From a virus: a stretch of DNA of 32,633 bases. A program made the position numbers and the translations under genes. Of this stretch, positions 1 to 28,779 are shown in pieces (the first letter of the stretch is position 1; the number at the start of each line of letters is the position of its first letter). The stretch spans positions 1-32,633 of IMG/VR virus record IMGVR_UViG_3300035698_016704; one strand, written 5' to 3'. The notes beneath the pieces are model-generated. The model searched no databases. It saw only the letters and a program-made list of their open reading frames with translations, and had not been told where the DNA came from.

Positions 1-89
1 CCCGATGTACCGATAAAATGTCCATACTTTATTACATCGAACCGTTCTAGTAATTGTATAAAGAACTCTTGATTTTCCCTATAGTTCAT
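1..89 (-). CDS. pyrE: Orotate phosphoribosyltransferase, N-terminal part (runs off window)
   Basis: Only the first 29 codons are present and the gene continues past the window edge. The peptide opens MNYRENQEFFIQLLERFDVI and continues with KYGHFIGTSG. This matches the start of orotate phosphoribosyltransferase, in which a helix ending in a Leu/Ile-rich turn leads into a conserved (A/V)-(I/L)-K-(F/Y)-G-x-F-x-x-x-S-G segment. The enzyme joins orotate to PRPP to make OMP. Its ATG overlaps the end of the upstream gene, OMP decarboxylase, which performs the next step, so the two are very likely translated together. The catalytic and PRPP-binding regions lie outside the window, so the call rests on the N-terminal motif plus the neighbour. 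Confidence 0.75.
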   Translation of the reverse strand, partial: MNYRENQEFFIQLLERFDVIKYGHFIGTS

Positions 90-762
90 TTTTCAATGCC
101 TCCTCTATTTCTTTATTTGTTTTATCCAAAGCTTCTAACATATTTGGTGCTGTTAAAATGGGACGACCTATAACTAACAAATCTGCTCCATTCTTAACAG
201 CTTGTGTTGGGGTGGTGATTCTTTTCTGATCATCATCTGCCACCATAGACCATTGTGGTCGGATACCAGGACATATTTTTTTAATTTTAGAGTTAAATAC
301 ATTGTCAATGAGATCTTCTCCGGAGCATACCACATAGCCATAATTCAGTCTAATTGCATCTTCTATAAACTCTTCTACCATTTCAAATGTAACTCCATGA
401 TACACATCATTAACTCTTTTTTTACTCATACTTGTTAAAATGGTAACTCCTGCAATTTTATCTGCTTGAATTTTATCTACTGGAACATATCCTGGTTCCA
501 TGTGGACAGTTATTATATCTGCTTTTGCTAACAGTATCTTATTCAGAGTATTGTTCATTGTGTTTGGTATATCATACAGTTTTGCGTCTGCCATAACTCT
601 CCCGCCAAATCGCTTTATGGCGGTTATTATTGAAGTTCCATATTCGAAAAACAAATCGTTAACTTTCCATCCCCAAACTTTATCTTTGGTCTTATATACA
701 ATCACCATAGCTTCTTCTAACGTCATTCCATCTAGCGGCAATATAATTCTTTCAGTGTTCAT
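79..762 (-). CDS. pyrF: Orotidine 5'-phosphate decarboxylase
   Basis: This 227-residue protein is the usual length for OMP decarboxylase, which converts OMP to UMP in the last step of de novo pyrimidine synthesis. The family landmarks are present in order: a PLDG strand at 9-12, a Lys at 33 (GWKVND), the catalytic D-x-K-x-x-D array at D59, K61 and D64 in ADAKLYDIPNT, and the phosphate-binding C-terminal block CPGIRPQWS, then DDQKRITTPTQAVKNGADLL and VIGRPI. Nothing looks degraded. The start overlaps the preceding HD gene by 4 bp and the stop overlaps the start of PyrE. OMP decarboxylase and its PyrE partner are uncommon cargo for a phage; the likely role is boosting UMP supply for nucleotide synthesis. 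Confidence 0.95.
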   Translation of the reverse strand: MNTERIILPLDGMTLEEAMVIVYKTKDKVWGWKVNDLFFEYGTSIITAIKRFGGRVMADAKLYDIPNTMNNTLNKILLAKADIITVHMEPGYVPVDKIQADKIAGVTILTSMSKKRVNDVYHGVTFEMVEEFIEDAIRLNYGYVVCSGEDLIDNVFNSKIKKICPGIRPQWSMVADDDQKRITTPTQAVKNGADLLVIGRPILTAPNMLEALDKTNKEIEEALKNEL

Positions 763-1283
763 TTTAACCCTCCTAGTTTTTTTCTGCTATTTTGAAAAAG
801 TTCGTGAGTATTAAAAGGTTTCATTGTGTTTAAGTTTTTTCTTAATAATTTTTTCCATTCAATAGGAGTCAACCCTCCTGTTTTTTTTATCTCAAACCAA
901 TACTCAGGCCACATCATCCAGGTAGGCATTAATACTCGTGAACGTTTATCGGCACGAAATAATTTACTCTCAATAAAACTTGATTCTTTAGGACAATGAC
1001 CAGCGCATAATAGGTATGCTCCAACTGAAGGCCACATAAATTTGGAAAACTTCCCTACAATAAAAGAAGATAATTTTGCTCCACTTTCCCAATGGCCTAT
1101 CTTCGCCTTATCGTCTGACAAATATTGTCTTCCACAAATCCCTATATCATGAAGAATTATACAAATTAATTCCCACCATTTAGGCCATGATTTATATTCC
1201 AATCTCCATGCTAATACGACCCATAAAGGATGTAAAAGAAATTGGTGACAACCTATTAAATATGATTTAGTTCCTTCAGTCAT
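759..1283 (-). CDS. HD-domain protein, probable metal-dependent phosphohydrolase
   Basis: The 174-residue protein contains an HD doublet in the segment ELICIILHDIGICGR (about residues 38-52). Further His and Asp residues lie at the expected spacing: GHWESGAK near 63-70, and GHC followed by KLFRADKRS near 95-115. This His...His-Asp...Asp layout is typical of HD-superfamily phosphohydrolases, which act on nucleotides or phosphate esters. The substrate cannot be read from the sequence. The gene overlaps both neighbours by 4 bp (ATGA junctions), upstream with the unknown 204-residue protein and downstream with PyrF, so it is probably part of a nucleotide-metabolism operon. The C-terminal 50 residues are basic and show no motif. 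Confidence 0.6.
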   Translation of the reverse strand: MTEGTKSYLIGCHQFLLHPLWVVLAWRLEYKSWPKWWELICIILHDIGICGRQYLSDDKAKIGHWESGAKLSSFIVGKFSKFMWPSVGAYLLCAGHCPKESSFIESKLFRADKRSRVLMPTWMMWPEYWFEIKKTGGLTPIEWKKLLRKNLNTMKPFNTHELFQNSRKKLGGLK

Positions 1284-1894
1284 TGGTATTTCCTATATTC
1301 CCACCAAACAATAGGTTCGTTCATCACGCCAGTTGATTCGCAGAAATAGGTCCATTCCAGAATGACATCTTTTTTGGGAAATTTCATAGCTCCAGCGATA
1401 ACATTCTCTAAGGGATAAGTTAAAATTCTTTTTTCAGATAAGAGGGCTGAGGTCGACATGTCGTGATCTCTTACCATTGCCCTTATTTCTTTTTTGCACC
1501 ATTCTAGATCAAATCTGTATGGCTTATCTGCCCCCTCATCATGTATAATTATATTTCCTGCAAACCTTCCGTTGTCTGGCGTTTCTGCATCTATCATACA
1601 ATTAAATTGCATTAATGCATTATCTAATGTACTGAATAGGTCGATATGCTTTATGTCTGTGTAATGAACTGTTTTGTTGCTTTCTGTAAATTTAGTCCTT
1701 TTATATGTTCTTATATTAAATATCTGTTCGGGATTTTCTTTGTGAATTTTATCAGCCCAATCCATAGCAATTTTTAAATGTTCTTTGTCATGTTGATAAG
1801 GAACAAAAATCATCTTAGGAGTATTTAATCCAGCATCAGATAATTCTTTTATGCGATCTATTTTAGCTATAATTTCTTCTGTGTTCCAAGTCAT
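1280..1894 (-). CDS. Hypothetical protein, pyrimidine-operon neighbour
   Basis: I do not recognise this 204-residue soluble protein. The start is well supported by AAAGGAGG eight bases before the ATG. It has no signal peptide or membrane segment. Notable parts are a helical N terminus with the phrase DAGLNTPKMIFV, a middle strand FNIRTYK, an acidic stretch CMIDAETPDNGRFAGNIIIH with DEGADKPYRFDLEW following, and an aromatic C terminus (EPIVWWEYRKYQ). The order 'aGlntPk', then 'fniRty', then a Glu/Asp-rich strand recalls very degenerate ATP-grasp folds, but no catalytic signature can be defended. It overlaps the HD gene by 4 bp and so is co-translated with the PyrF/PyrE block. Confidence 0.55.
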   Translation of the reverse strand: MTWNTEEIIAKIDRIKELSDAGLNTPKMIFVPYQHDKEHLKIAMDWADKIHKENPEQIFNIRTYKRTKFTESNKTVHYTDIKHIDLFSTLDNALMQFNCMIDAETPDNGRFAGNIIIHDEGADKPYRFDLEWCKKEIRAMVRDHDMSTSALLSEKRILTYPLENVIAGAMKFPKKDVILEWTYFCESTGVMNEPIVWWEYRKYQ

Positions 1895-1908: not shown

Positions 1909-2421
1909 TTAATTTAACTTTCTTTCAATTATTCCAATTGTATCATGTATTGCACCACCATGAGACATTAACAATATATGTTCTTGTTCGAAACGTCTTA
2001 CTTTACCCATTGATACAGAATGATAACCAAACGTAATAACTGATCCTTTTGTATCAACAATTTTTACAATCATATCTTTAAGATAATTGAATCTACTAGA
2101 AACTTTACCCTTATACATTTCCATTGATTTTCTATAACTATAAGGGGGATCTAAAATTATTGTGTTGAATTTTTTGCCTTTCCAATTTTTAACAAATTCT
2201 AATGCATCTAGGTGGTGATCTGCGTTCATGTCGGAATTTGAATCATTTCTAATTTCATTACAATTTAATTTTGTTTTACCAGCAAATAAATTCAATACTC
2301 TACCTTTAGAATTATCTTCAACCCACTTTCTTATTCTAGAATTTTTAAATGTGTATCTGTATAGAGGTGTTTTCATGTATGTAATTTTTAGTTCTTTCTT
2401 TTTTGTTGGAATTCTTTTCAA
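1909..2421 (-). CDS. DPPY-type SAM-dependent DNA methyltransferase-like protein
   Basis: This protein of up to 170 residues carries the two signatures of amino-methyltransferases: a motif I-like SAM-binding strand-loop (RVLNLFAGKTKL, about 41-52) and a catalytic motif IV (FNTIILDPPYSYRKS, about 85-99). DPPY is typical of N6-adenine DNA or RNA methyltransferases. The order is motif I then IV. The protein is short and lacks a recognisable separate target-recognition domain, so it may modify phage DNA with relaxed specificity or act on another substrate. The frame opens with a TTG overlapping the stop of the Rad50-like gene (TTGA). The first ATG, MKTPLYRYTF, lies 15 codons in and has no obvious ribosome site, so coupled initiation at the TTG is favoured but unproven. 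Confidence 0.72.
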   Translation of the reverse strand: MKRIPTKKKELKITYMKTPLYRYTFKNSRIRKWVEDNSKGRVLNLFAGKTKLNCNEIRNDSNSDMNADHHLDALEFVKNWKGKKFNTIILDPPYSYRKSMEMYKGKVSSRFNYLKDMIVKIVDTKGSVITFGYHSVSMGKVRRFEQEHILLMSHGGAIHDTIGIIERKLN

Positions 2422-4346
2422 TATATTAACCTACTCTTTCCATTTTCCAGCTTAACATATGCCTTGTTGGTAAATAGTTGTTTAATTGATTTCGAATGAG
2501 AAAAGATTATAAATCTTTTATTACTATCTTCATCTTCTAACATTTCTTTAATTTTAATTATGCCTGTTTCATCAATTCCGTCGAATAACTCATCAAGGAA
2601 AATTTCGTTTATTAGGTTGTCTTCAATGTTCATTAGTGCGAAGCTGACAATAATTTCTATTCTTTTTTTCTGTCCCTTAGACCATTCTTTAAAAGGTAAA
2701 TTCTTTTTGTTTAAATCACTTATTTCAAATTCAAATATATTTCTAACTTTTTTATTGCCTTGTAGTTTTTCAGTTAATAACTTTATATCTACAGTTCCGT
2801 CTGTTAATTTTTCTGATATTCTTTTTATTTGTCTGTTAAGTTCATAAACTGTTGATTTTAAAGCATGTGTTTGTATTTCCTCCTTTCCAAACCCACTGTG
2901 CCATGCATCTTTATATTTGAAATCATCTCTTAATGCATACAATATTTTTCTTAAGTCAAGTTTCTTATTTTTAATTTTTAATAATTCTTTTCTTAACTTT
3001 AAGACTTGTTCTTTATGGGTGTTTGTTTCATTTTCAATTGCGATAATTCGTCTTTCAATATCTGTGTTGAAACTCTTTTGGTCTTTTTCTAACTTAGAGA
3101 TCCATTTTCTTGTATTGGACAATATCTTTTTTGAATGAGATATTTGTGATTCTATTCTTTCGTTATCAATTTGGACTTGTTCTAATTCTATTAACTTGGC
3201 TTTGATTTCTTGCTTTGATTTCTTTGCTTTTTCTAACTTCTCCTTTTCAAAGAAAAGATTCCACTTGTTTAAACTTAAACTACTTTTATATTTTTCTATA
3301 TGCTTTTTGAGATTTCTCTTAGTAATTAAATTTCCACAGTGAATGCATACCAATCCCGCTTTTTTGTCATTGATTTTGGCTTCTTCTATAATACTTCTTT
3401 CAGAATTGACTACAGATCTGGTTACAGCAATTTGCTTTTCAAGACTAACTATATATTCATTCCGTTCATTAATCTTGTCTCTTTTATCTTCCATACTAAA
3501 TTTTGAAACTTTTTTAATAGAAAGCTTTAGTTTTCTTATGCGTATGGTATCCTCTTTTAATTCTTTCTCTTTCTTTTTCTTTTCTATGAGAAACTTTTTC
3601 TTTGTCTTGCTCTTCTTTCTGATAAGAATCTTGAGTCGTTCCTTTATGTTTTGATTAAATTCTTTGCCCAAGGTTTCATTTTCTTTTCTTTCTTCGGAGA
3701 TCCTTTTGGACAATGTTATTAACTTTTCTATTTCGTTCTTTATTGCAGCTAACTCTTTAGTAATTTCTTTCATTTCTTCTTTAACAACTTCTTCACACTT
3801 TAAAAATATTTCTAATCCTTTCATTTGTGAGAGAAGTTGTTTGCCTTCTTTATCACCTAAGTAAACAAATCTTGATCTTTCATCGTTACTTTCAAATACA
3901 GATGTATTCATTATTCTTTTGTATGAGAAGCCAAGAATATCCAGCATATGTTTAGATAAGTCTGTTGCCGTGCTTTTCTTTTTTTCTTTGCCATTTATTT
4001 TTAGTCTTATATCATTTGAATATATCTTATCCTTACGGTATCTTTTTATCCAAAAGTGATTATTCGATGAGTCAGTAAACGTTCCCTCCACATTCATTGA
4101 CTTTTTAAATACACCAATTAAGGAATTTTTATTAGAATTCTTGGTGGTTCTGTTGCAAAGTAGAAACAATAATGCTTCATAGATTATAGACTTACCCGCA
4201 CCATTATTATCGGCAAAAGACATATCGTCTATATTTTTTCCATAGATCAATAATATATTTTCCTTATCAAATAACTCATTAAAATCAAAAATTTGATCTT
4301 CATAAGTTATAAAATTTGATAACTTTAATGTATCCAAAGAAAGCAT
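2418..4346 (-). CDS. Rad50/SbcC/gp46-type recombination ATPase
   Basis: This 642-residue SMC-like ATPase is the partner of the Mre11/gp47-like nuclease encoded just upstream. The N-terminal nucleotide-binding half opens with LKLSNFITYEDQIFDF. It has a Walker A ending DNNGAGKS at 46-53, with extra residues after GKN at 36-38. Long Lys/Glu-rich coiled coils follow, with a CIHC zinc hook at 334-337 midway. The C-terminal half has a signature motif SKGQKKR (556-562), a Walker B IFLDELFD (583-590) and an H-loop FSHS. The complex resects DNA ends for recombination-dependent replication. The signature SKGQ differs from the common LSGGQ but keeps Ser, Gly and Gln. The ATG is preceded by AAGGAAAAC. 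Confidence 0.93.
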   Translation of the reverse strand: MLSLDTLKLSNFITYEDQIFDFNELFDKENILLIYGKNIDDMSFADNNGAGKSIIYEALLFLLCNRTTKNSNKNSLIGVFKKSMNVEGTFTDSSNNHFWIKRYRKDKIYSNDIRLKINGKEKKKSTATDLSKHMLDILGFSYKRIMNTSVFESNDERSRFVYLGDKEGKQLLSQMKGLEIFLKCEEVVKEEMKEITKELAAIKNEIEKLITLSKRISEERKENETLGKEFNQNIKERLKILIRKKSKTKKKFLIEKKKKEKELKEDTIRIRKLKLSIKKVSKFSMEDKRDKINERNEYIVSLEKQIAVTRSVVNSERSIIEEAKINDKKAGLVCIHCGNLITKRNLKKHIEKYKSSLSLNKWNLFFEKEKLEKAKKSKQEIKAKLIELEQVQIDNERIESQISHSKKILSNTRKWISKLEKDQKSFNTDIERRIIAIENETNTHKEQVLKLRKELLKIKNKKLDLRKILYALRDDFKYKDAWHSGFGKEEIQTHALKSTVYELNRQIKRISEKLTDGTVDIKLLTEKLQGNKKVRNIFEFEISDLNKKNLPFKEWSKGQKKRIEIIVSFALMNIEDNLINEIFLDELFDGIDETGIIKIKEMLEDEDSNKRFIIFSHSKSIKQLFTNKAYVKLENGKSRLIY

Positions 4347-4730: not shown

Positions 4731-5894
4731 CTATCCTCCCTTTCTGCTCTTCTCAATTGATATTTCTTTTTCAGCTTTATTGAGAATTCTCAATCCTTCT
4801 GTCTCAACCTCCTTTCTGTCTATTTTATATTTTTCTGATATTATTTTTGAATATTTAATTACTATTGATTTTTTATTAGTGCCTATGTTTTCCATAATAG
4901 TGTCTTGTTTTTTATTTTTTTTCACATCTTTAAAGGTTGTAAATAATGCTCCTTGTTTTGTTAGCCGCTTACGTATCTCGGCTTTGTCTGACATGTCTTG
5001 TATAACGTCATTTTTAATACATATAATATGCCCTTTAACTTTTTTTGTGACCACTTTATTGTTTAATGTCTTTAACTTTGAGTAATTAATATACTTAAAT
5101 CTTGGTGATTTTGGTATTACAAAAAATCTTACTTTTTTATCAAGGTCTATTATATGAAATCCATGCTCTTTATTTTTTTCTCCAAAGTTTAATGGTATCA
5201 AAGAAGAAGTATAGAACCCCTTACCATTGCAGATAGTTTGATATTTGTGGATATGGCTTGCTACAATTAAGTCAAATATTGACAGATTTTTTAAGTCCTG
5301 ATTAAGTCCTGATTTTATTTTTCTTTCATTTGGAAACATAGCTCCTGAAAAGCTGTTATGTATAATCAGTATATTATATGTTTCTTTTTCCACTTTAAGT
5401 TTCATTATAATTTTTTTTAATTTAATAAGTGTCTTCACATTCGACATATAAGGTATAACATAAAAGTTAATGTTATTTATATTATAAATTTTTGGTTTTG
5501 TAAATACAAAATGGTTTACATTCTTGCTTACATTTATGAGTGGTTCCAGTACAGAACTATCTCCATCTAAGTCATGATTTCCTAAGTTTATTAGTATGCG
5601 ATTGTGTCTAAACTTGAGAAGAAATTCTGTTAAAACAAATTCTACTGGATAATCAAAGATTCCTGAATGGATAATGTCGCCATTCAATACAAGGGGCAGG
5701 TTTAACTTTTCGCTAATCTCTCCTATATTGTTTAGAACTAATGATAAGTGTTTTAATCTTGAAGAAATTTCCTCTGTATGATCTGAATATGGATAGTGAT
5801 TATATAGATGTATGTCTCCGGCCACTACGAAACCTCTTTTAATTCTCAGACAGTAGGCTTCTTTTTCTTTAATGACTTTAACTTTGAATTTCAT
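4731..5894 (-). CDS. Mre11/SbcD/gp47-type nuclease
   Basis: This metallophosphoesterase of about 387 residues is the nuclease partner of the Rad50-like ATPase. The phosphodiesterase motifs appear in order: GDIH (D27, H29), NGD (D73), GNHD (N106-D108), an IIHNSFSG histidine motif near 185 and ASHIHK near 217, together forming the two-metal site. The C-terminal third is Lys-rich and probably contacts the ATPase coiled coil. I chose the ATG of MKFKVKVIKE because GTGGAG lies eight bases upstream; an in-frame extension of 12 codons runs into the radical SAM gene. The start overlaps that gene's end by 17 bp. Its activity depends on the gp46-like gene two small ORFs downstream. Confidence 0.92.
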   Translation of the reverse strand: MKFKVKVIKEKEAYCLRIKRGFVVAGDIHLYNHYPYSDHTEEISSRLKHLSLVLNNIGEISEKLNLPLVLNGDIIHSGIFDYPVEFVLTEFLLKFRHNRILINLGNHDLDGDSSVLEPLINVSKNVNHFVFTKPKIYNINNINFYVIPYMSNVKTLIKLKKIIMKLKVEKETYNILIIHNSFSGAMFPNERKIKSGLNQDLKNLSIFDLIVASHIHKYQTICNGKGFYTSSLIPLNFGEKNKEHGFHIIDLDKKVRFFVIPKSPRFKYINYSKLKTLNNKVVTKKVKGHIICIKNDVIQDMSDKAEIRKRLTKQGALFTTFKDVKKNKKQDTIMENIGTNKKSIVIKYSKIISEKYKIDRKEVETEGLRILNKAEKEISIEKSRKGG

Positions 5895-6666
5895 TATTTC
5901 TCCACTTGTGAAACTCGTAAGCACTCTCAATTATGAGATCCCAGTTGCCAAAAGTAGCAGGAATAGGACATAGTTGAGGACACGCATTGGCATGTCCTGA
6001 AGGAAAGACCCATAGTGCCTTAAGAGTGACGCATTTCCGTTTACATCCCTTGCAGCCATCTCCTCGGTTCTCTTGAATTCCTGTAAAGCGTGTAAAGACA
6101 TGATCTGGATAAGCATTTATCATTTCTGTAATATGTCTTTTTGGCAATTCTGTAACTGCGTAGAAATCTTCAAATAATTTTATCTTAAATCCAAAGTTGG
6201 CGTGATAATTTACAATTCGTTCTAAATCTTCACGAGCCATATAATCTGTTACAACTATCTGTACTTGGGCTTTATATCGATAAGCAGTTGACAACATTCC
6301 GCCAAGGACAGAAACATGCCACTTGTCAACGAATTGGTCAATACCTCTACTAAGAGCCCTTCCGTTAGTCACAACCTTTACAGTGGCTCCGAGACCTTTT
6401 GCAACTTCAGTTAAGATTGACAGATGTTGGTACAATCCAGGTTCTCCGCCAGAGAAAGTAACTATTGTTTCTTCCTTTTTCTTTTTCATGAAATTTGTAT
6501 AGGCTACAATGGCTCCTAGTCCGTCAGACAATGGTAGAAATAGGATAGGATCATTCTTTGGCATAAAGTCATTTAAACAAAAACTACAATTCCTATCGCA
6601 TTTATTAGTTACTAAAATCCTTAACCTAAACTCATCTCTATGAATTTGTTTATCCCAGGCTTCCAT
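5878..6666 (-). CDS. Radical SAM enzyme with extra C-terminal cysteines
   Basis: This 262-residue protein has the radical SAM cluster motif C-x3-C-x2-C at C23, C27 and C30 (NKCDRNCSFC). A GGEP-type SAM motif, TFSGGEPGLYQHL, lies near residues 69-81, with VVTNGR further on. The C-terminal part carries more cysteines (GCKGCKRKC, then a separate NACPQLC), suggesting a second iron-sulphur cluster as in SPASM/twitch-type enzymes. Such enzymes modify peptides, cofactors, tRNA or nucleobases; the substrate is not evident here. It lies between RecA (1 bp before the start) and the Mre11-like gene (17 bp overlap), so it is transcribed with the recombination genes. A role in modifying phage DNA or a nucleotide is possible but unproven. 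Confidence 0.85.
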   Translation of the reverse strand: MEAWDKQIHRDEFRLRILVTNKCDRNCSFCLNDFMPKNDPILFLPLSDGLGAIVAYTNFMKKKKEETIVTFSGGEPGLYQHLSILTEVAKGLGATVKVVTNGRALSRGIDQFVDKWHVSVLGGMLSTAYRYKAQVQIVVTDYMAREDLERIVNYHANFGFKIKLFEDFYAVTELPKRHITEMINAYPDHVFTRFTGIQENRGDGCKGCKRKCVTLKALWVFPSGHANACPQLCPIPATFGNWDLIIESAYEFHKWRNNEIQS

Positions 6667-6667
6667 A

Positions 6668-7774
6668 TCATTCTTCCTTATCTAATTTTCTCTCTAATCT
6701 TCTCTTTATTTTCGGGGATTTTTCTACCAATTCTTTAAGAGCTTCTATGAACTTTTTAACCGTAGCGACTCTTAGTGTGTGTTTCTTCTTTTTGTATTTA
6801 TATTCCAAAATGTAAGTGTTCTTTTCCCTTTCTATAACACCCTTTTCTAAAAGAATATTAAAAAGAGATCTGGAATAGTCTACACCCTCTCCAAAAATAA
6901 TAGGCATAGTTATTGATCTAAAAGGAACCATAACTTTATTCTTAACAGTTTTAGCCAAGACTTCTATACCAATCGGATCACCTTCTTTTGTTAGTCGTAT
7001 TAGTCCAGATTGTCTTAAATCAAGGCGTAGTGAAGCGTGAAATTTTAAAGCTTTGCCTCCTATTTCTGTGTCTTTGTTTCCATATTTAACACTAGTATCT
7101 GTCTTTAATTGATTTGTGCATACAAAACAAATTTGTTCTTTAGATATGGCTCCAGTTATTTTTCTAAAAAATTTAGAAAGCCTTCTGGCATGTAATCCGA
7201 GAGCTTGTTCGTCAGCAAACGATCCAGCTTCCCATTCTGCTTTGGGTGGAACTCCAGCAATACTATCAAATCCTATAAACATAGGAACATCCCACTCTTC
7301 GCCAGTTTCTTCCAAATGTTCTTCTTTAGCTGTTTTAAACATATCTATATAGAATTTAATTAAATCCAATCCCTCTTCTAAATAACGTGGTTGGGATATT
7401 AAAAGTTCTTCCAAATCTAATCCCAATTTTTTAGCATAGATAGGATCAAAGGCATGTTCCGTCTCTACAAGTAGAGATAGCCCACCCATTACTTGAACAT
7501 TTTTCATAAGCGAAGTTATTAATGTAGTTTTTCCACTAGCTTCCTTACCGCTCACTCCAATAATCCTACCAACTGGCATCCCAAAATTGCCAGACATATC
7601 TCTGGCTAATATTCTGTCTAAATCAGGTGAATCAGTGCTTATAACAGTCCTGACTGTGGATCCAAGATTATCCGACGATAATATTTGAGTAGGACTTTCA
7701 CTATATACTTTTAAACTTTTATCAATAATGCTATTGATAAGTTTAGCTCGACGTTTGGCTGTCTTTTTGTTCAC
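6668..7774 (-). CDS. recA: RecA/UvsX-type recombinase
   Basis: A 368-residue strand-exchange protein. The P-loop GKEASGKTT is at 76-84, the Walker B strand MFIGFDS ends at D170, and the bacterial RecA-type block FFRKITGAI...ICFVCTNQLK is followed by a loop region with TEIGGKALKFHASLRLDLR. It therefore resembles bacterial RecA more closely than T4 UvsX. The basic C terminus (KIKRRLERKLDKEE) replaces the acidic tail of host RecA. Translation begins at GTG (MNKKTAKRRAKL), with GAGGAG seven bases upstream, inside the end of the dCMP deaminase gene (32 bp overlap). It should drive recombination-dependent replication with the SSB and Mre11/Rad50 partners nearby. Confidence 0.95.
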   Translation of the reverse strand: MNKKTAKRRAKLINSIIDKSLKVYSESPTQILSSDNLGSTVRTVISTDSPDLDRILARDMSGNFGMPVGRIIGVSGKEASGKTTLITSLMKNVQVMGGLSLLVETEHAFDPIYAKKLGLDLEELLISQPRYLEEGLDLIKFYIDMFKTAKEEHLEETGEEWDVPMFIGFDSIAGVPPKAEWEAGSFADEQALGLHARRLSKFFRKITGAISKEQICFVCTNQLKTDTSVKYGNKDTEIGGKALKFHASLRLDLRQSGLIRLTKEGDPIGIEVLAKTVKNKVMVPFRSITMPIIFGEGVDYSRSLFNILLEKGVIEREKNTYILEYKYKKKKHTLRVATVKKFIEALKELVEKSPKIKRRLERKLDKEE

Positions 7775-14478: not shown

Positions 14479-17164
14479 TTTTATGTCCCCATTTTTTTAC
14501 TGCCATTGAAATAAATTTATCTTTAAAGGATTTGAAATCTTCAGGACTTTTTGACTTAATAATTTTTCTCATCGTTTCTGAATCAATCGGGTTCATGCCA
14601 GCGAATTCAGTGGAACTTCGCATCACGTGTTCGGAATAAGTAAGAACACCTCGTGTGTCTGCGAGGACTTTTTTAAGTGATGGATGTAAGACTTTTTCTT
14701 TTTTTCTGCCGTATTTTCGGTCAATGAAATTTGGGAACGCACCGGATGCCATAGGACCAGGACGATCTGCCGCTACCATAAAAATTATTTCTTCTATATT
14801 TTCAGGTTTTAATTGTTTTAAAATTGGTTTTAAGAAGTTTTTATTGAGTTGAAATATACCTAAGTTCTCCCCTTCCGACAGGGATTTATAAACTTTTTTA
14901 TTATTCAAAGGAATCGTTTCTATTTTTAATTCCTTACCTTTTCTCTTTTTTATTAATTTAAATGCATCGTTTATAATAGTGAGAGTGCGGACTCCGAGAA
15001 GATCCATCACCATTACTCCACGTTCATTAAGATGTTCTACGCTTGTATGCGAGTTTTCCCATTGCGTAGCAAATACTCTTTCACCACCTTTTTCTTTAGA
15101 CAATTTGTTTGTTCTTACAGGAAGCCATTTATAATATGGTTCTGGTGAAATAACTATTCCAGCGGGATGTAATGATTCTCCATATGCGTTACCAATTATA
15201 GGACGAATATAGGTTTCGAACCATTCTTTATTGTCTTCAAACCATTCAGCTACAGATGATCCTGGTATCTCATCTATATTATCAGGCATTATTTTTGTTA
15301 TCTTGTTAATTGCTTGATATTCAAATGGTTCTAGTTTCTTTTTTAATTTTTCAATCTTCACTTCCGAAGTGGCTTGATCTATCTTATTCTTTATATCTTT
15401 TGCATCAACCCTTGCTATATTTTTTATTGCCATTTTCAATTGATTTCTACCAAAACTTCCTACAATACATATATGATCTTCTCCATACGTTTTCTTTAAA
15501 TAACTAATAGCCATATCCCTGTATGTGTGTGATATGTCAAGATCAATATCGATATCTGCCATTTGTGCTTCTATTCTTGCGGGGCTAATGAATCTTTCGA
15601 ATAATATATCAAACTCAATAGGATTAACAATTGACATTCCAATTAGCCATAGAATAATGCTACCGTTAGCAGATCCTCTTAAAGAACAAATACATCCTTG
15701 TTTCTTTAAAAAGCGTATGAGATCATCGTATATGAGAATGTAGCCAATTACATCCATCTTAATAAACGCATCTAATTCCAAACTAATTCTATGTGCATAT
15801 TCAGTAGACAGTTTTTTCTTTCTTTGTTTAACAATTTTTTTAATACTTTTTTCAATCCTATATTTAAGGTAGTCTTCTTTATCCATCCAATTTTTATATC
15901 CAGGAAATCCACTGATATCTATCTTGGGAATTTTTAATCCACCAGTCGGTATTATATAATTACATTTATCAGCAATTTTTAGTGTATTTCCTGTTGCTTT
16001 CTCAAATATATCTTGTGAAAGATAGTTGAAATTCTTTTTTGTCTTCTGAAGACTTTTATAATCTTTAAACCATAAAGATTTACAATATGCGCTAAAGATA
16101 TCTGAGTCAGTTTTTACTCTTATTAGTTTATTCTGGATTTTATGCATTCCTTTATCTAAGTAATGTACATCATTTGTTAATACTAATTCAATGTCTAATT
16201 TTTTAGACATTTTTATAAGTTCTTTGTTATAAACTTTTTGGATATCTTTGTCATTGTCGTCTATGATTTTATGCATTTGTATTTCTAAATATAGATCTTT
16301 ACCAAATACTTTATGGAGCCTTTTAACTTTTTTATATGCCGTTTTTAGCTCTCCATTTAGTATGTCTTGAGCGATCAAACCTTTAAGGCAAGCTGTTAAT
16401 ACTATTAAACCATCGTGATGTTTTAAGAGCATGTCGTAACCGATTCTTGGTCTATAATAAAAGTTTTCAGGAGACCATGATAACATTTGAAGCTTTAATA
16501 GATTTTGATAGCCTTGTTTATTTTTGACCAACAACACAATGTGATTGCTTGTCCTATGATCTCCGTCGTGGACTGCTGGTTCATCAACTATATATGTCTC
16601 GGTTCCAAATATTGGTTTTATACCTAACTTCTTAGCTTCTAATTGTAAATATAAATGAGAAGATACATTGCCGTGATTAGTAATTGCAAGAGCGTTCATT
16701 CCAAATTCTTTTGCACGTTGAAGATATGATTTACAAGTGCTAACTCCATCAAGAAGTGAGTAGTCATCATGGACATGTAGGTGTATAAATTTGGATTTGT
16801 TTTTACTGGATACTTTTTTTGTGATCGGAACAAGAGAGGATAGTGGTATGGGATAAACAGCGAGTTGTCTCTTCTTTAGAATTCTTTGTTTTTTTATTAT
16901 GTTTTCGAGATCTAAATAAAACGGTTTGTTTTTAAAGATAATTACTATCTTATTAATGATGTTAGCTGTGATATCAGAATACACATGGATGGGAATATTC
17001 GTTTCTTTTCCTTCCTTAAACAAATACATTGCTTCATATATAAATAACTTTCCTACATCTGATTTAACTATCAAGTAGTTATCATTAGCTAACCTTTTAA
17101 CTAAGATCTTTGAAATCTTTATTCCGTGGTCATTCAGTAGCTTTATAATTTCTTTTGTTTTCAT
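14432..17164 (-). CDS. dnaE: DNA polymerase III alpha, N-terminal part (PHP plus palm)
   Basis: This 910-residue part of a bacterial C-family replicative polymerase starts MKTKEIIKLLNDHGIKISKI, preceded by AAGGAGATTA. The PHP domain begins HLHVHDDYSLLDG at 128-140 and keeps ITNHG and LTNDVHYL, so its metal site looks intact. The palm has SLRGSANGS (494-502) and the catalytic ADIDIDLD with Asp at 537, 539 and 541. Later come ESLHPAGIVISPEPY and the RPGPMASGAFPNFIDRKYGR fingers block. It is collinear with DnaE up to FISMAVKKWG, then changes to HKNANKNTKIPHDETKV, which is the endonuclease sequence read in another frame. The remaining enzyme is encoded at 12541-13497, so the two would have to associate as subunits. 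Confidence 0.93.
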   Translation of the reverse strand: MKTKEIIKLLNDHGIKISKILVKRLANDNYLIVKSDVGKLFIYEAMYLFKEGKETNIPIHVYSDITANIINKIVIIFKNKPFYLDLENIIKKQRILKKRQLAVYPIPLSSLVPITKKVSSKNKSKFIHLHVHDDYSLLDGVSTCKSYLQRAKEFGMNALAITNHGNVSSHLYLQLEAKKLGIKPIFGTETYIVDEPAVHDGDHRTSNHIVLLVKNKQGYQNLLKLQMLSWSPENFYYRPRIGYDMLLKHHDGLIVLTACLKGLIAQDILNGELKTAYKKVKRLHKVFGKDLYLEIQMHKIIDDNDKDIQKVYNKELIKMSKKLDIELVLTNDVHYLDKGMHKIQNKLIRVKTDSDIFSAYCKSLWFKDYKSLQKTKKNFNYLSQDIFEKATGNTLKIADKCNYIIPTGGLKIPKIDISGFPGYKNWMDKEDYLKYRIEKSIKKIVKQRKKKLSTEYAHRISLELDAFIKMDVIGYILIYDDLIRFLKKQGCICSLRGSANGSIILWLIGMSIVNPIEFDILFERFISPARIEAQMADIDIDLDISHTYRDMAISYLKKTYGEDHICIVGSFGRNQLKMAIKNIARVDAKDIKNKIDQATSEVKIEKLKKKLEPFEYQAINKITKIMPDNIDEIPGSSVAEWFEDNKEWFETYIRPIIGNAYGESLHPAGIVISPEPYYKWLPVRTNKLSKEKGGERVFATQWENSHTSVEHLNERGVMVMDLLGVRTLTIINDAFKLIKKRKGKELKIETIPLNNKKVYKSLSEGENLGIFQLNKNFLKPILKQLKPENIEEIIFMVAADRPGPMASGAFPNFIDRKYGRKKEKVLHPSLKKVLADTRGVLTYSEHVMRSSTEFAGMNPIDSETMRKIIKSKSPEDFKSFKDKFISMAVKKWGHKNANKNTKIPHDETKV

Positions 17165-17423
17165 TAATCTCCTTCTTTTGAGATATTTGTCTTTCAAAAA
17201 TATCACCAATGCTTTTAAGATTTAAAATCATATCTTCTCTCGTGTCATTGGTATACCCTATGCCGACATTTATCCCGGAATATAATCCAGCTCTAACTAG
17301 AAGTTTGCGAATACTACTAATGAAATCTTTATCAGAAATATTTAAATCTTTATGAGCTCCTGTTTTAAGTATTTCATCAATAATAGTATTACTCCATCCA
17401 TTCTCGGTTAATAAGCATTCCAT
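17130..17423 (-). CDS. Hypothetical protein (97 aa)
   Basis: A helical protein starting MECLLTENGWSNTIIDEILK and ending KKEINENKRNYKATE. Its ATG lies one codon after the stop of the ThyA-family gene, without a strong ribosome site, so initiation is probably coupled. The 3' end overlaps the polymerase gene by 35 bp and contains that gene's ribosome site. I see no known domain. Its position suggests tight co-expression with the polymerase. Confidence 0.65.
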   Translation of the reverse strand: MECLLTENGWSNTIIDEILKTGAHKDLNISDKDFISSIRKLLVRAGLYSGINVGIGYTNDTREDMILNLKSIGDIFERQISQKKEINENKRNYKATE

Positions 17424-17426
17424 ATT

Positions 17427-18638
17427 CTAATAACCCCAATTTCCTAATATGAAATTGTTAGTTTTTTCTGAAAAGTTAAAACTCATAATGCGTTCTTTAA
17501 AGCTTTGACCAAGCTTATTATCCATTTTCACTAAATATCTCATAAAATATTCTAGTCCTGCTATTTTAATGTCTTTATTAACATCAGATATATGTTCTAA
17601 CAACTCGTATGCTTTGCTATACTCACTATGTTTTATACATACAAAAGATAATATTAAAACTAAATAGTCTACAAGAAATGCTGATCCAGGTGTTAAGAAG
17701 TCATTATAAAAGTCCTTTTCGTAATACATAAATTGTGGGTCTTTAATTGCTTCTTCTATTATTTTCATTGTTTCGGAAATGGCTGTATAAAATGAATTAA
17801 GATTTTTAAATTTCATTCCTCTTGTAGATGGTATTAATTCAGATTTATATACATTATATTCGAAGTTAATTTGGTTATTTAGAATTTTGTGGATGCGTAT
17901 GTCCATATCGTGGTAATAATGGAATGAAACTGCATTATGAAAATAAGTCCCTATCCTTCTGTTTAAAATGCCTGCAATTATTTCCTGTAGGAATGTCCAT
18001 TCAAATACATTTATATTATAACATCCCCACAGTATGTCATTACTTCTCATTTTGACATAACAATCCAATTGGTTGTTTCTTATTAGAAATTGAACAGAAA
18101 TTGTGCAAGGTCTGTCTTTTGTTTCTTCCAATGGATCATAGTCAATAAGTTGTTGAGGAATAATAATAATAGCTTGTAGTGAAAATGGATCTTTTTCCAA
18201 AGTTTCAATAGCCCACCTTATTTGATCATTAAAAAATTTAGGAAACTGAATCGAGAAAGAAAGTTTCTCATTAGCCATTTTTCCAACTGTGTCAATTCTG
18301 TTATTAGTGTTTATCCATCTTAATCTAGGACCATATGCTCCCCCCCATGTTCTGCCATCGTTATCACTATAGTCAACGCAATTTGGCAAGAAGAATTTTA
18401 AGAAATCTAAGTCATTTCTTCCAGACATAACCCAAAAGGTTTCTGCAACGGTTGCCATAATATTATTGTATCTAAAGGGACAGGTTAAGAATCTTTTAGT
18501 TGGATCTGATATGCCGAAAGAGAAGTCTGTTATTTCTCTAATTTTGCTTCCTCTCTTTATAATATCATCACCTTTTTTAACTAAATATCCTAATGCACTT
18601 ATAAATGATGTATTTATATTGTCGTGTAACATGTACAT
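17427..18638 (-). CDS. Thymidylate synthase family protein (TS or dUMP hydroxymethylase)
   Basis: A 403-residue protein; the start MYMLHDNINT follows GGAGGAGGAAT. ThyA landmarks: DPTKRFLTCPFRYN (45-58, phosphate-binding Arg region), GRTWGGAYGPRLRW (95-108), RPCTISVQF with the nucleophilic Cys at 178, MRSNDILWGCYNINVFEW (197-214, nucleotide-binding), and GTYFHNAVSFHYY (230-242, the His/Tyr pair). The Asn in CYNIN argues for dUMP rather than dCMP. It is longer than bacterial ThyA (about 264), with an extra C-terminal helical region of about 120 residues, and lacks the usual short Val/Ile-Ala-Val end. It could make dTMP or 5-hydroxymethyl-dUMP; sequence inspection cannot separate these. Confidence 0.82.
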   Translation of the reverse strand: MYMLHDNINTSFISALGYLVKKGDDIIKRGSKIREITDFSFGISDPTKRFLTCPFRYNNIMATVAETFWVMSGRNDLDFLKFFLPNCVDYSDNDGRTWGGAYGPRLRWINTNNRIDTVGKMANEKLSFSIQFPKFFNDQIRWAIETLEKDPFSLQAIIIIPQQLIDYDPLEETKDRPCTISVQFLIRNNQLDCYVKMRSNDILWGCYNINVFEWTFLQEIIAGILNRRIGTYFHNAVSFHYYHDMDIRIHKILNNQINFEYNVYKSELIPSTRGMKFKNLNSFYTAISETMKIIEEAIKDPQFMYYEKDFYNDFLTPGSAFLVDYLVLILSFVCIKHSEYSKAYELLEHISDVNKDIKIAGLEYFMRYLVKMDNKLGQSFKERIMSFNFSEKTNNFILGNWGY

Positions 18639-18675
18639 ATATTCCTCCTCCTTTTTTAGGTTAGGTTGCAAGTTA

Positions 18676-19467: not shown

Positions 19468-19653
19468 TTAAACTTTTATAATTATTGGATATTCATTATA
19501 TTGCTCTATTAGTTCTTCATCGTCGAATAACTTGGGAACAGGTTTGGGCGGAATCATGGATGAACTTGGTCCTAGGCTATCTATTTCATAATGGTCTATC
19601 TTTCTCGCTGCAACCAATCCGTCGATAATTACCAACATTTCATTATCTTTCAT
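19468..19653 (-). CDS. Small acidic hypothetical protein (61 aa)
   Basis: Begins MKDNEMLVIIDGLVAARKID with GGTGGAG before the ATG, and ends QYNEYPIIIKV. A central Pro/Ser stretch (GPSSSMIPPKPVPKLF) separates a short hydrophobic N-terminal strand from an acidic helix. No family recognised. It lies between the lipoprotein gene and the SLOG gene with very short gaps on both sides. Confidence 0.65.
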   Translation of the reverse strand: MKDNEMLVIIDGLVAARKIDHYEIDSLGPSSSMIPPKPVPKLFDDEELIEQYNEYPIIIKV

Positions 19654-24216: not shown

Positions 24217-24847
24217 TTACCTCCTTATCAATAATGCTGTTACGCTTGTGATATAATTCATTACTGGATATTCATACGGCTCTTTAATCTTTTCCAATAA
24301 TTTATAGACATCAATACCAATGGCTTCCATACTTGGCATTCCTTTTCTACGACAAGGAGGATTACCCCTATTAGGGCAACGACCACCGCATAAATCACAA
24401 TGCCCAGGAATGAGTGCGAAACAATTAAATCCATGCTTGCTAACCTCTCTTCTATAATTATTCATAAGTGTAGTAATGATTCTGCTTTGTGCTGCTTCTG
24501 TTCCTTTTAACTGTTTACCAATTTTCTTTTTAAACTCTATATGAGAAAGTTCAGTTTTGTCAATTTTCCAACTTTTTGTTCCGTCATTTTTCCAAACAAA
24601 AACTGCTACAAAATCAAAGGATTTGAGAAAATTTCTGGTAGATTTAAAAGTTTTGAATTGTGGATAGGTTTGCCATAGATAAGGCGGACATAGAACTGCT
24701 CTATGGTACTCAATACAAACCACAGTTCATACACTTAATCCTCGCTATCAAGTCTAATGGAATTTGTTTGGGTTTAATATAATGGATCTTATGTATATTT
24801 TCTGGATAGTTTAAATTATTAATAGTGTTCAACAGTAGTTTGTTCAT
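24217..24847 (-). CDS. DUF2284-like metal-binding protein, in frame only after +1 shift at UGA
   Basis: An ideal GGAGGTGAT starts MNKLLLNTINNLNYPENIHK, which ends after 45 codons in KCMNCGLY followed by TGA (24710-24712). Moving +1 at that point joins it to EYHRAVLCPPYLW and the rest of a DUF2284 protein (total about 209 residues). The joined product restores the family's N-terminal 'C-x2-C...CPPY' cysteine set. The C-terminal block PGHCDLCGGRCPNRGNPPC and MPSMEAIGIDV is canonical. The downstream frame alone opens only at a GTG without a ribosome site. DUF2284 proteins are predicted Fe-S or metal binders, common in anaerobes. Programmed frameshift, mutation and sequence error are all possible. 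Confidence 0.8.
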
Positions 24848-27693: not shown

Positions 27694-28779
27694 TTACCTT
27701 TTACTTTTTTTCTTGTTCTTTTTGTCTTTCTTGCTCTTTTTGTCCTTCTTGTCAGACTTTTTGTCTTTCTTGTCCTTCTTGTCAGACTTTTTGTCTTTCT
27801 TGTCCTTCTTGTCAGACTTTTTGTCTTTCTTGTCCTTCTTGTCAGACTTTTTGTTCTTTTTGTCCTTTTTGTCCTTATTGCTAGACTTTTTGGCCTTTTC
27901 TGCTAAAGCCTTTCCCTTTTCCTTTCTTTCACTAGCAGTTTCGCCAGCTTTTTTAATAGCAATTTTTACAGCCTTCTTAAAATCGCCAGGGAGTTTTTCA
28001 GTAAGGGGCAGAGTTGCCATGTCCGCATAAGATTCTTTTACCTTATGGAGTTTCTTATATGGAACAATTTTCTTAAGATCTTTGAGATTTTTCGGAGAGA
28101 GACGGTTGAACAAAAATGCAAGGCCACTATCAGCATTTTTGACCTTAACGACAGATATTACATTTACGTTACCGATTCTAAAAACCGAAATTGAAGATTT
28201 ATGAACACATTCCAATTCATAGTCTTCAGTAATGCTTTCTATCAGGTCCTTAAATTTAATTGGAATAATGCCATTATCAATGACGGCGACATTTTTCTTT
28301 TTCAAACTTTTCATCTCCTTCTTTTTTTCTTCTTTCTTTATTTTGGACATTTTTTCTCCTTTCTTCTTTTTGGACTTTTTGTCATCACTATCTTCATCGT
28401 CATCGTCGTCATCATCATCGTCATCATCATCGTCATCATCATCGTCATCATCGTCGTCGTCATCGTCGTCATCATCACTATCGTCATCATCGTCATCATC
28501 ATCACTATCGTCATCATCGTCGTCATCATCACTATCGTCATCGTCGTCGTCATCGTCATCATCGTCGTCATCACTCTTGTCTTCACCTTTCTCTTCGTCC
28601 TCGTCTTCATCCTCGTCCTCGTCTTTCTCCTTTTCGGTGGTAGCTACCGCACATCCACTTTCCTCATCTCCACCGAAATCACATTCCTCCGTACAATCCG
28701 TTTCATCTGCATCATACATCCCGAAACACTTAGGTTTCTTTAATTCTTCTTCCTTTTTCTTCTTTTTCTTCTTTGCCAT
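27694..28779 (-). CDS. Charge-block protein: CFG-Cys motif, poly-Asp, unknown domain, Lys repeats
   Basis: A protein of 361 residues in five parts. A poly-Lys start (MAK7-EEEL) leads into a Cys motif KPKCFGMYDADETDC with TEEC and GC behind it. A stretch of about 80 residues, nearly all Asp with Ser and Glu, follows, then a short basic linker. A globular domain of about 120 residues (AVIDNGIIPIKFKDLIESIT to PYKKLHKVKES) matches nothing I know. The tail has about 75 residues of Lys/Asp/Ser repeats (unit KKDKKSDKKD). The CFG-Cys motif plus poly-Asp is shared with the SSB at 8516-9838. Gene-specific promoter, 5' hairpin and terminator suggest independent, strong expression. Such a polyampholyte may bind DNA or proteins by charge. 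Confidence 0.8.
   Translation of the reverse strand: MAKKKKKKKEEELKKPKCFGMYDADETDCTEECDFGGDEESGCAVATTEKEKDEDEDEDEDEEKGEDKSDDDDDDDDDDDDDSDDDDDDDDSDDDDDDDDSDDDDDDDDDDDDDDDDDDDDDDDDDDDEDSDDKKSKKKKGEKMSKIKKEEKKKEMKSLKKKNVAVIDNGIIPIKFKDLIESITEDYELECVHKSSISVFRIGNVNVISVVKVKNADSGLAFLFNRLSPKNLKDLKKIVPYKKLHKVKESYADMATLPLTEKLPGDFKKAVKIAIKKAGETASERKEKGKALAEKAKKSSNKDKKDKKNKKSDKKDKKDKKSDKKDKKDKKSDKKDKKDKKSDKKDKKSKKDKKNKKKSKR
27751..27851 (-). repeat. 30-bp tandem repeats encoding Lys-rich decapeptides
   Basis: Three identical 30-base units run end to end at 27751-27780, 27781-27810 and 27811-27840, with partial copies on both sides. Each begins GTCAGACTTTTTGTC on the plus strand and encodes ten residues of the K-K-D-K-K-S-D pattern. 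Perfect identity, including third codon positions, indicates recent amplification. Confidence 0.93.
28385..28627 (-). repeat. Asp-codon (GAT/GAC) low-complexity tract
   Basis: GAY codons broken by AGT codons give DDDDDDSDDDDDDDD-like runs, then a GAC-GAG alternation at the upstream end. It resembles the tract in the SSB gene near 8716-8912 at both DNA and protein level. Confidence 0.9.

Follow-up and report, generated by a model that had tools for sequence, protein, structure and literature searches.

An overlapping pyrF–pyrE gene pair in an uncultured phage genome, predicted to take host orotate to UMP

The left end of an uncultured viral contig carries the gene for OMP decarboxylase (pyrF) and, overlapping it, the start of the gene for orotate phosphoribosyltransferase (pyrE), and the two very probably form a co-translated phage unit that would convert host orotate and PRPP to UMP. 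The stretch of DNA analysed (the window) is 32,633 bases long and corresponds to the entire viral record IMGVR_UViG_3300035698_016704 of IMG/VR. If the overlapping PyrF–PyrE pair, and the contigs with PyrD described below, are what they appear to be, some phages take over the orotate to UMP step itself. The pair, two small enzymes, could show cleanly whether phages get round a host's shutdown of its pyrimidine synthesis.

The pyrF gene (79–762, minus strand) is complete, encodes 227 aa and is preceded by an AGGAGG ribosome-binding-like site (769–774, minus strand). Its product passed the cut-offs of Pfam PF00215 (E 7.8e-34, 117.9 bits against 27) and NCBIfam TIGR01740 pyrF (95.3 bits against 92.3) and fell under that of the stricter NCBIfam equivalog NF001273 (141.9 bits against 193); solved OMP decarboxylases match it at E about 1e-17. 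The D-x-K-x-x-D set consists of D59, K61 and D64. These residues, together with D11, K33 and R200, do not vary across the 16 sequences aligned, and K33, D59, K61 and D64 are conserved in all 31 viral PyrF rows; we take K33 and the D-x-K-x-x-D set to be catalytic and R200 to be the phosphate-binding residue. The structure predicted with AlphaFold2 (pLDDT 92.6) found as its top PDB match in Foldseek 1dbt, the B. subtilis OMP decarboxylase with UMP (TM 0.83, E 8.3e-18). Model score, catalytic residues and fold prediction place the protein in the OMP decarboxylase family, as the first-pass annotation had it when it described a complete enzyme with this motif. A search of PHROGs with the window PyrF returned zero families at E 1e-3, which exposes a gap in phage gene catalogues.

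The ATG of pyrE lies at 89–87 and the stop codon of pyrF at 81–79, the genes, both on the minus strand, overlapping by 11 bases. Only the first 29 residues of PyrE are present (1–89, minus strand), the rest being cut off by the contig end, and as the window is the entire record there is no sequence past position 1. An AGGAGG ribosome-binding-like site lies within the 3′ end of pyrF (99–104, minus strand), 9 bases upstream of the pyrE ATG, and the same motif stands ahead of pyrE in a related contig, IMGVR_UViG_3300009128_001633 (95,856 bases; loci L002 and L029–L033), whose PyrF is 62% identical to that of the window. In this relative PyrE is complete (207 aa) and overlaps PyrF by 4 bases, so that gene order and overlap are conserved between two phages at this distance. 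The window fragment matches the N-terminus of the complete protein at 64% across 25 aa (E 7.6e-7), with a BLOSUM62 score of 92 where 2000 shuffles reached no more than 38, in keeping with the earlier proposal that PyrE begins in the frame overlapping PyrF. The best of 17 NCBIfam models for the relative's PyrE is TIGR01367 pyrE_Therm (E 4.6e-32), at 111.2 bits under an equivalog cut-off of 150.25, and PF00156 is passed (42.5 bits; cut-off 26.3). A PRPP loop (VEDVATTGGS) is present, and this loop and a C-terminal CPxC are shared with the solved relative 4paw; the predicted model (pLDDT 52, from a 4-row alignment only) was too poor for fold comparison. The full-length PyrE with its PRPP loop, which had been sought beyond position 1 of the window, is therefore seen in the relative. 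The overlap and the ribosome-binding site of pyrE inside pyrF suggest coupled translation.

The pair sits in a real phage genome. Over about 28 kb, between PyrF and the ORF that ends at 28,779, the window is collinear with the initial 25 kb of the relative's contig; 30 window ORFs were matched at roughly 40–78% protein identity, a count that includes some shadow frames, with ORF 19468–19653 matched elsewhere, at 93.5 kb. As the remainder of the relative's contig encodes portal, terminase, head protease, major head protein and tape measure proteins, the relative is a tailed phage, and past its PyrE there are more ORFs and then this structural block, with phage DNA either side of the pair. A tRNA search of the same contig gave zero. 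The window also encodes a family-C DNA polymerase, a RecA/UvsX-like recombinase, SbcC- and SbcD-like proteins, a primase, a DnaB-like helicase and two enzymes of the related pathway, a dCMP deaminase (7743–8258, minus strand; PF00383 E 5e-21, phrog_174) and a protein of the thymidylate synthase family (17427–18671, minus strand; PF00303 E 3.1e-15, phrog_3676). Near pyrF, a protein for which Pfam, PHROGs and NCBIfam gave no family (1280–1894, minus strand) is 47% identical to its positional counterpart in the relative. A bacterial chromosome misassembled onto a phage contig, or a prophage flank, might be suspected at this left end, for the window breaks off inside PyrE and every deposited ‘phage’ PyrF with an annotated neighbourhood is such a case. 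Against this stand the independent contig with the same order running through PyrF into PyrE and phage genes on both sides, and the related PyrFs in other viral contigs. As the collinear phage contig holds PyrF, a complete PyrE and further phage genes, neither truncation nor a bacterial joint can account for the pair; misassembly and host contamination are ruled out unless one error is common to both assemblies, and we regard this explanation as extremely improbable. The two doubts raised in the first-pass annotation, a truncated PyrE and bacterial flanking sequence, have thus been answered by a PyrE that is complete in the relative and by DNA that is phage on both sides.

Some other features of this region were recorded in passing. 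Two ORFs, 14432–17209 and 12541–13302 (minus strand; 925 and 253 aa), each encode a part of the family-C DNA polymerase, and between them lie an HNH-like ORF named by eye (13897–14478) and others; the relative's polymerase is divided likewise, with other ORFs in the gap, and zero Rfam matches to a group I intron or other RNA were obtained for the split region. A radical SAM protein (5878–6666, minus strand) has the prokaryotic viperin model as its best NCBIfam match (E 1.9e-12, 46.9 bits, far under the cut-off of 180). Two conserved phage proteins (8516–9838 and 27694–28779, minus strand) contain very long runs of aspartate, which in the relative are far shorter or missing, and a DUF2284 predicted metal-binding protein (24217–24723, minus strand; PF10050 E 1e-18) is 71% identical there.

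Phage PyrF recurs in uncultured viral contigs and is hardly seen in deposited phage genomes. Among 50,697 deposited phage records, four PyrF queries each brought up much the same few (10, 9, 10 and 10 records), and two PyrE queries returned six records and none, one of the six being also a PyrF record. Six of the 10 PyrF records were examined (OR848291, OR848274, OR846840 and OR850243 being the remainder) and all six have a bacterial look: the two with annotation are bacterial neighbourhoods, CAKLQF020000009 has the same pyrF–ybjE pair under the match as a bacterial-neighbourhood record, and the unannotated OR847059, OR846607 and OR846851 are placed among Firmicute PyrFs in trees. No clear phage PyrF was found among the deposited records on this basis. 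In contrast, a pattern scan of IMG/VR with five viral PyrFs, of a kind that misses distant members, gave 40 contigs encoding PyrF, belonging to at least two viral groups; nine of the 34 new full-length viral PyrFs were identical to another after trimming. The first-pass statement that phages rarely carry de novo UMP enzymes therefore holds for deposited phage genomes but not for uncultured viral contigs.

The ancestry of the viral PyrFs is probably not single. In a first tree of 57 rows the five viral rows formed one clade (97/96), but this broke up in an 80-row tree with 31 viral rows, and a single origin of all viral PyrF was set aside. The larger tree contains a group A (the window, L002, L088, L004 and L020; 100/95), in which the contigs beside the window are of 96, 59, 48 and 244 kb, a group B of 23 rows (97/89), at the base of which sits a SAR324 row, and three viral rows that stand alone. 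Holding A and B together was not rejected (p-AU 0.2), whereas holding A, B, L122 and L123 together was (p 0.014), in tests on groups that were defined with a tree already in view and for which 12 rows (long branches, near-copies) had been removed beforehand. The viral PyrFs appear on these trees to comprise at least two supported groups and single rows. The closest cellular PyrFs, from Patescibacteria, SAR324 and other bacteria, are 34–46% identical, and the nearest by tree path is the bacterial row L005. At E 1e-3, PyrF was matched in 29 of the 286 genomes that share a phylum with a Paceibacterota genome and in 11 of the 52 that share one with SAR324-type genomes; as phyla beyond these two were represented by a few rows, we name no donor. 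Trees proposed as a way to the donor lineage have thus delivered the viral groups A and B but have singled out no donor among cellular rows of at most 46% identity.

The possibility that the genes are passengers, derived from a host, awaiting loss and without function in infection, has in its favour their patchy distribution and the truncation of the window PyrE by the contig end. The open frames, ribosome-binding sites and gene order kept at 62% identity, the catalytic residues conserved in every one of the 31 viral rows and the depth of the viral PyrF groups speak for maintained genes instead, and we consider passengers very unlikely.

Other genes of the pathway were found in further viral contigs. 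PyrD-like proteins (PF01180) occur in four of the 19 viral records tested (1/6 and 3/13); they are short (about 230–238 aa) and conserve a CPN motif, the site of the catalytic cysteine in class 1 enzymes. A viral contig of 51 kb (IMGVR_UViG_3300020411_002386, L143) has pyrF overlapping a pyrD-like gene (1471–2178 and 2166–2768, minus strand), and a 244,552-base contig with a terminase (L020) has PyrE, a PyrD-like protein (29.2 bits; cut-off 27) and PyrF within 8.4 kb. On the 244-kb contig, 17 kb ahead of PyrE, one region (L038, 1344–3682, plus strand) encodes a nicotinate/nicotinamide phosphoribosyltransferase, over cut-off, and a bifunctional NMN adenylyltransferase/Nudix-like protein, under cut-off. 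A nucleotide cluster of Prs, PurB, PyrF, a PurC-like protein and RpiB (L021, 2749–13108, plus strand; Prs, PurB and RpiB over a cut-off, PurC-like under it at 77.2 against 189.9 bits) recurs in L090 and L096. A highly divergent PyrF overlaps a PyrE in a viral contig of 116 kb (IMGVR_UViG_3300020578_000017, L127) in what looks like an independent pair, with a GroEL-like ORF, named by eye, nearby (12866–14464, minus strand). The genes do not always travel together: a PyrE in a 67-kb viral contig (L126, 7974–9427, plus strand) adjoins a dCMP deaminase-like gene and that contig gave zero PyrF matches, and several viral records have PyrF without PyrE or PyrD within the part available. These PyrF-only records and the PyrE-only L126 argue against a fixed module.

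The proteins could be real and phage-borne and still have another chemistry or a regulatory job. PF00215 covers HUMPS enzymes too, and PyrE-like proteins include salvage transferases and regulators; the relative's PyrE is under its equivalog cut-off and PyrF stands alone in some viral contigs. However, every catalytic residue of OMP decarboxylase is conserved, PyrF models score above HUMPS models, the top model for PyrE is of the OMP pathway and above adenine phosphoribosyltransferases, and the neighbours seen are PyrD, PyrE and Prs. Another role is improbable, if less so than a passenger one, and we retain conversion of orotate to UMP as the predicted function.

The natural reading of two enzymes with intact motifs is that the pair would pull host orotate to UMP. 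In the mechanism we propose, the two-gene unit, pyrF then pyrE, would close the replication and nucleotide block of a tailed phage; PyrE would combine host-made orotate with PRPP to give OMP, PyrF would decarboxylate this to UMP, and host kinases and reductase, with the phage dCMP deaminase and thymidylate synthase, would carry the pyrimidine towards dTTP, placing phage enzymes at both ends of the route. As zero matches to dihydroorotate dehydrogenase were found in the relative's contig, orotate would come from the host. The benefit might be more pyrimidine, or a supply maintained while the host turns down its own pyr genes. Unlike the genes, their order, motifs, predicted PyrF fold and phage context, it is expression, activity and benefit that we infer. 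Infection of Lactococcus by sk1 is reported to be accompanied by early repression of host UMP genes (PMC10986495), and by analogy such repression would be one setting in which pyrF–pyrE would pay. A broader idea, which we offer tentatively and think rather doubtful, is that unrelated phages repeatedly assemble the terminal UMP branch (PyrD, PyrE, PyrF and at times Prs) in the form of tight, overlapping gene pairs. Such phages would have PyrF lineages of their own and a viral PyrD of reduced length, and could go on making pyrimidine out of host dihydroorotate or orotate once the host had repressed its pyr genes as an antiviral response.

Phages rework nucleotides and carry single de novo genes. 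In the literature searched (mostly open papers, preprints excluded) we found no report of a phage PyrF–PyrE pair. As far as the available parts of the papers go, cyanophages carry pyrE (PMC5083919, PMC2784084, PMC9146016), likewise a phage-borne de novo pyrimidine gene but pyrE alone, without pyrF. Neither phage PyrE query retrieved a cyanophage record among the 50,697 deposited, so the cyanophage gene is of a distant or different PyrE type. The portions seen of other reports describe pyrE as enriched in a marine virome (PMC4022391), an orotate phosphoribosyltransferase in Borg elements of archaea (PMC11208441) and roseophages credited with de novo pyrimidine synthesis genes, those listed being deaminases, thymidylate synthase and ribonucleotide reductase (PMC11981692). 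An estuary list of viral auxiliary metabolic genes contains pyrDI and pyrF (PMC13288924) and so shares with our contigs a viral pyrF and a viral dihydroorotate dehydrogenase, but in the part available it is a pathway annotation without the gene pair, pyrE or a phylogeny. Among bacteria, Paenibacillus cellulosilyticus (NZ_CP054609) has pyrF then pyrE with a 4-base overlap like that of the relative. Its pair lies within the pyr operon after carB, whereas the phage pair is alone in a replication block; PyrFs of bacterial pairs are about a third identical to the phage PyrF, and the phage PyrE is nearest the Thermus-type model. As read from its predicted enzymes, the PyrF–PyrE pair extends the known nucleotide genes of phages to a paired terminal UMP branch.
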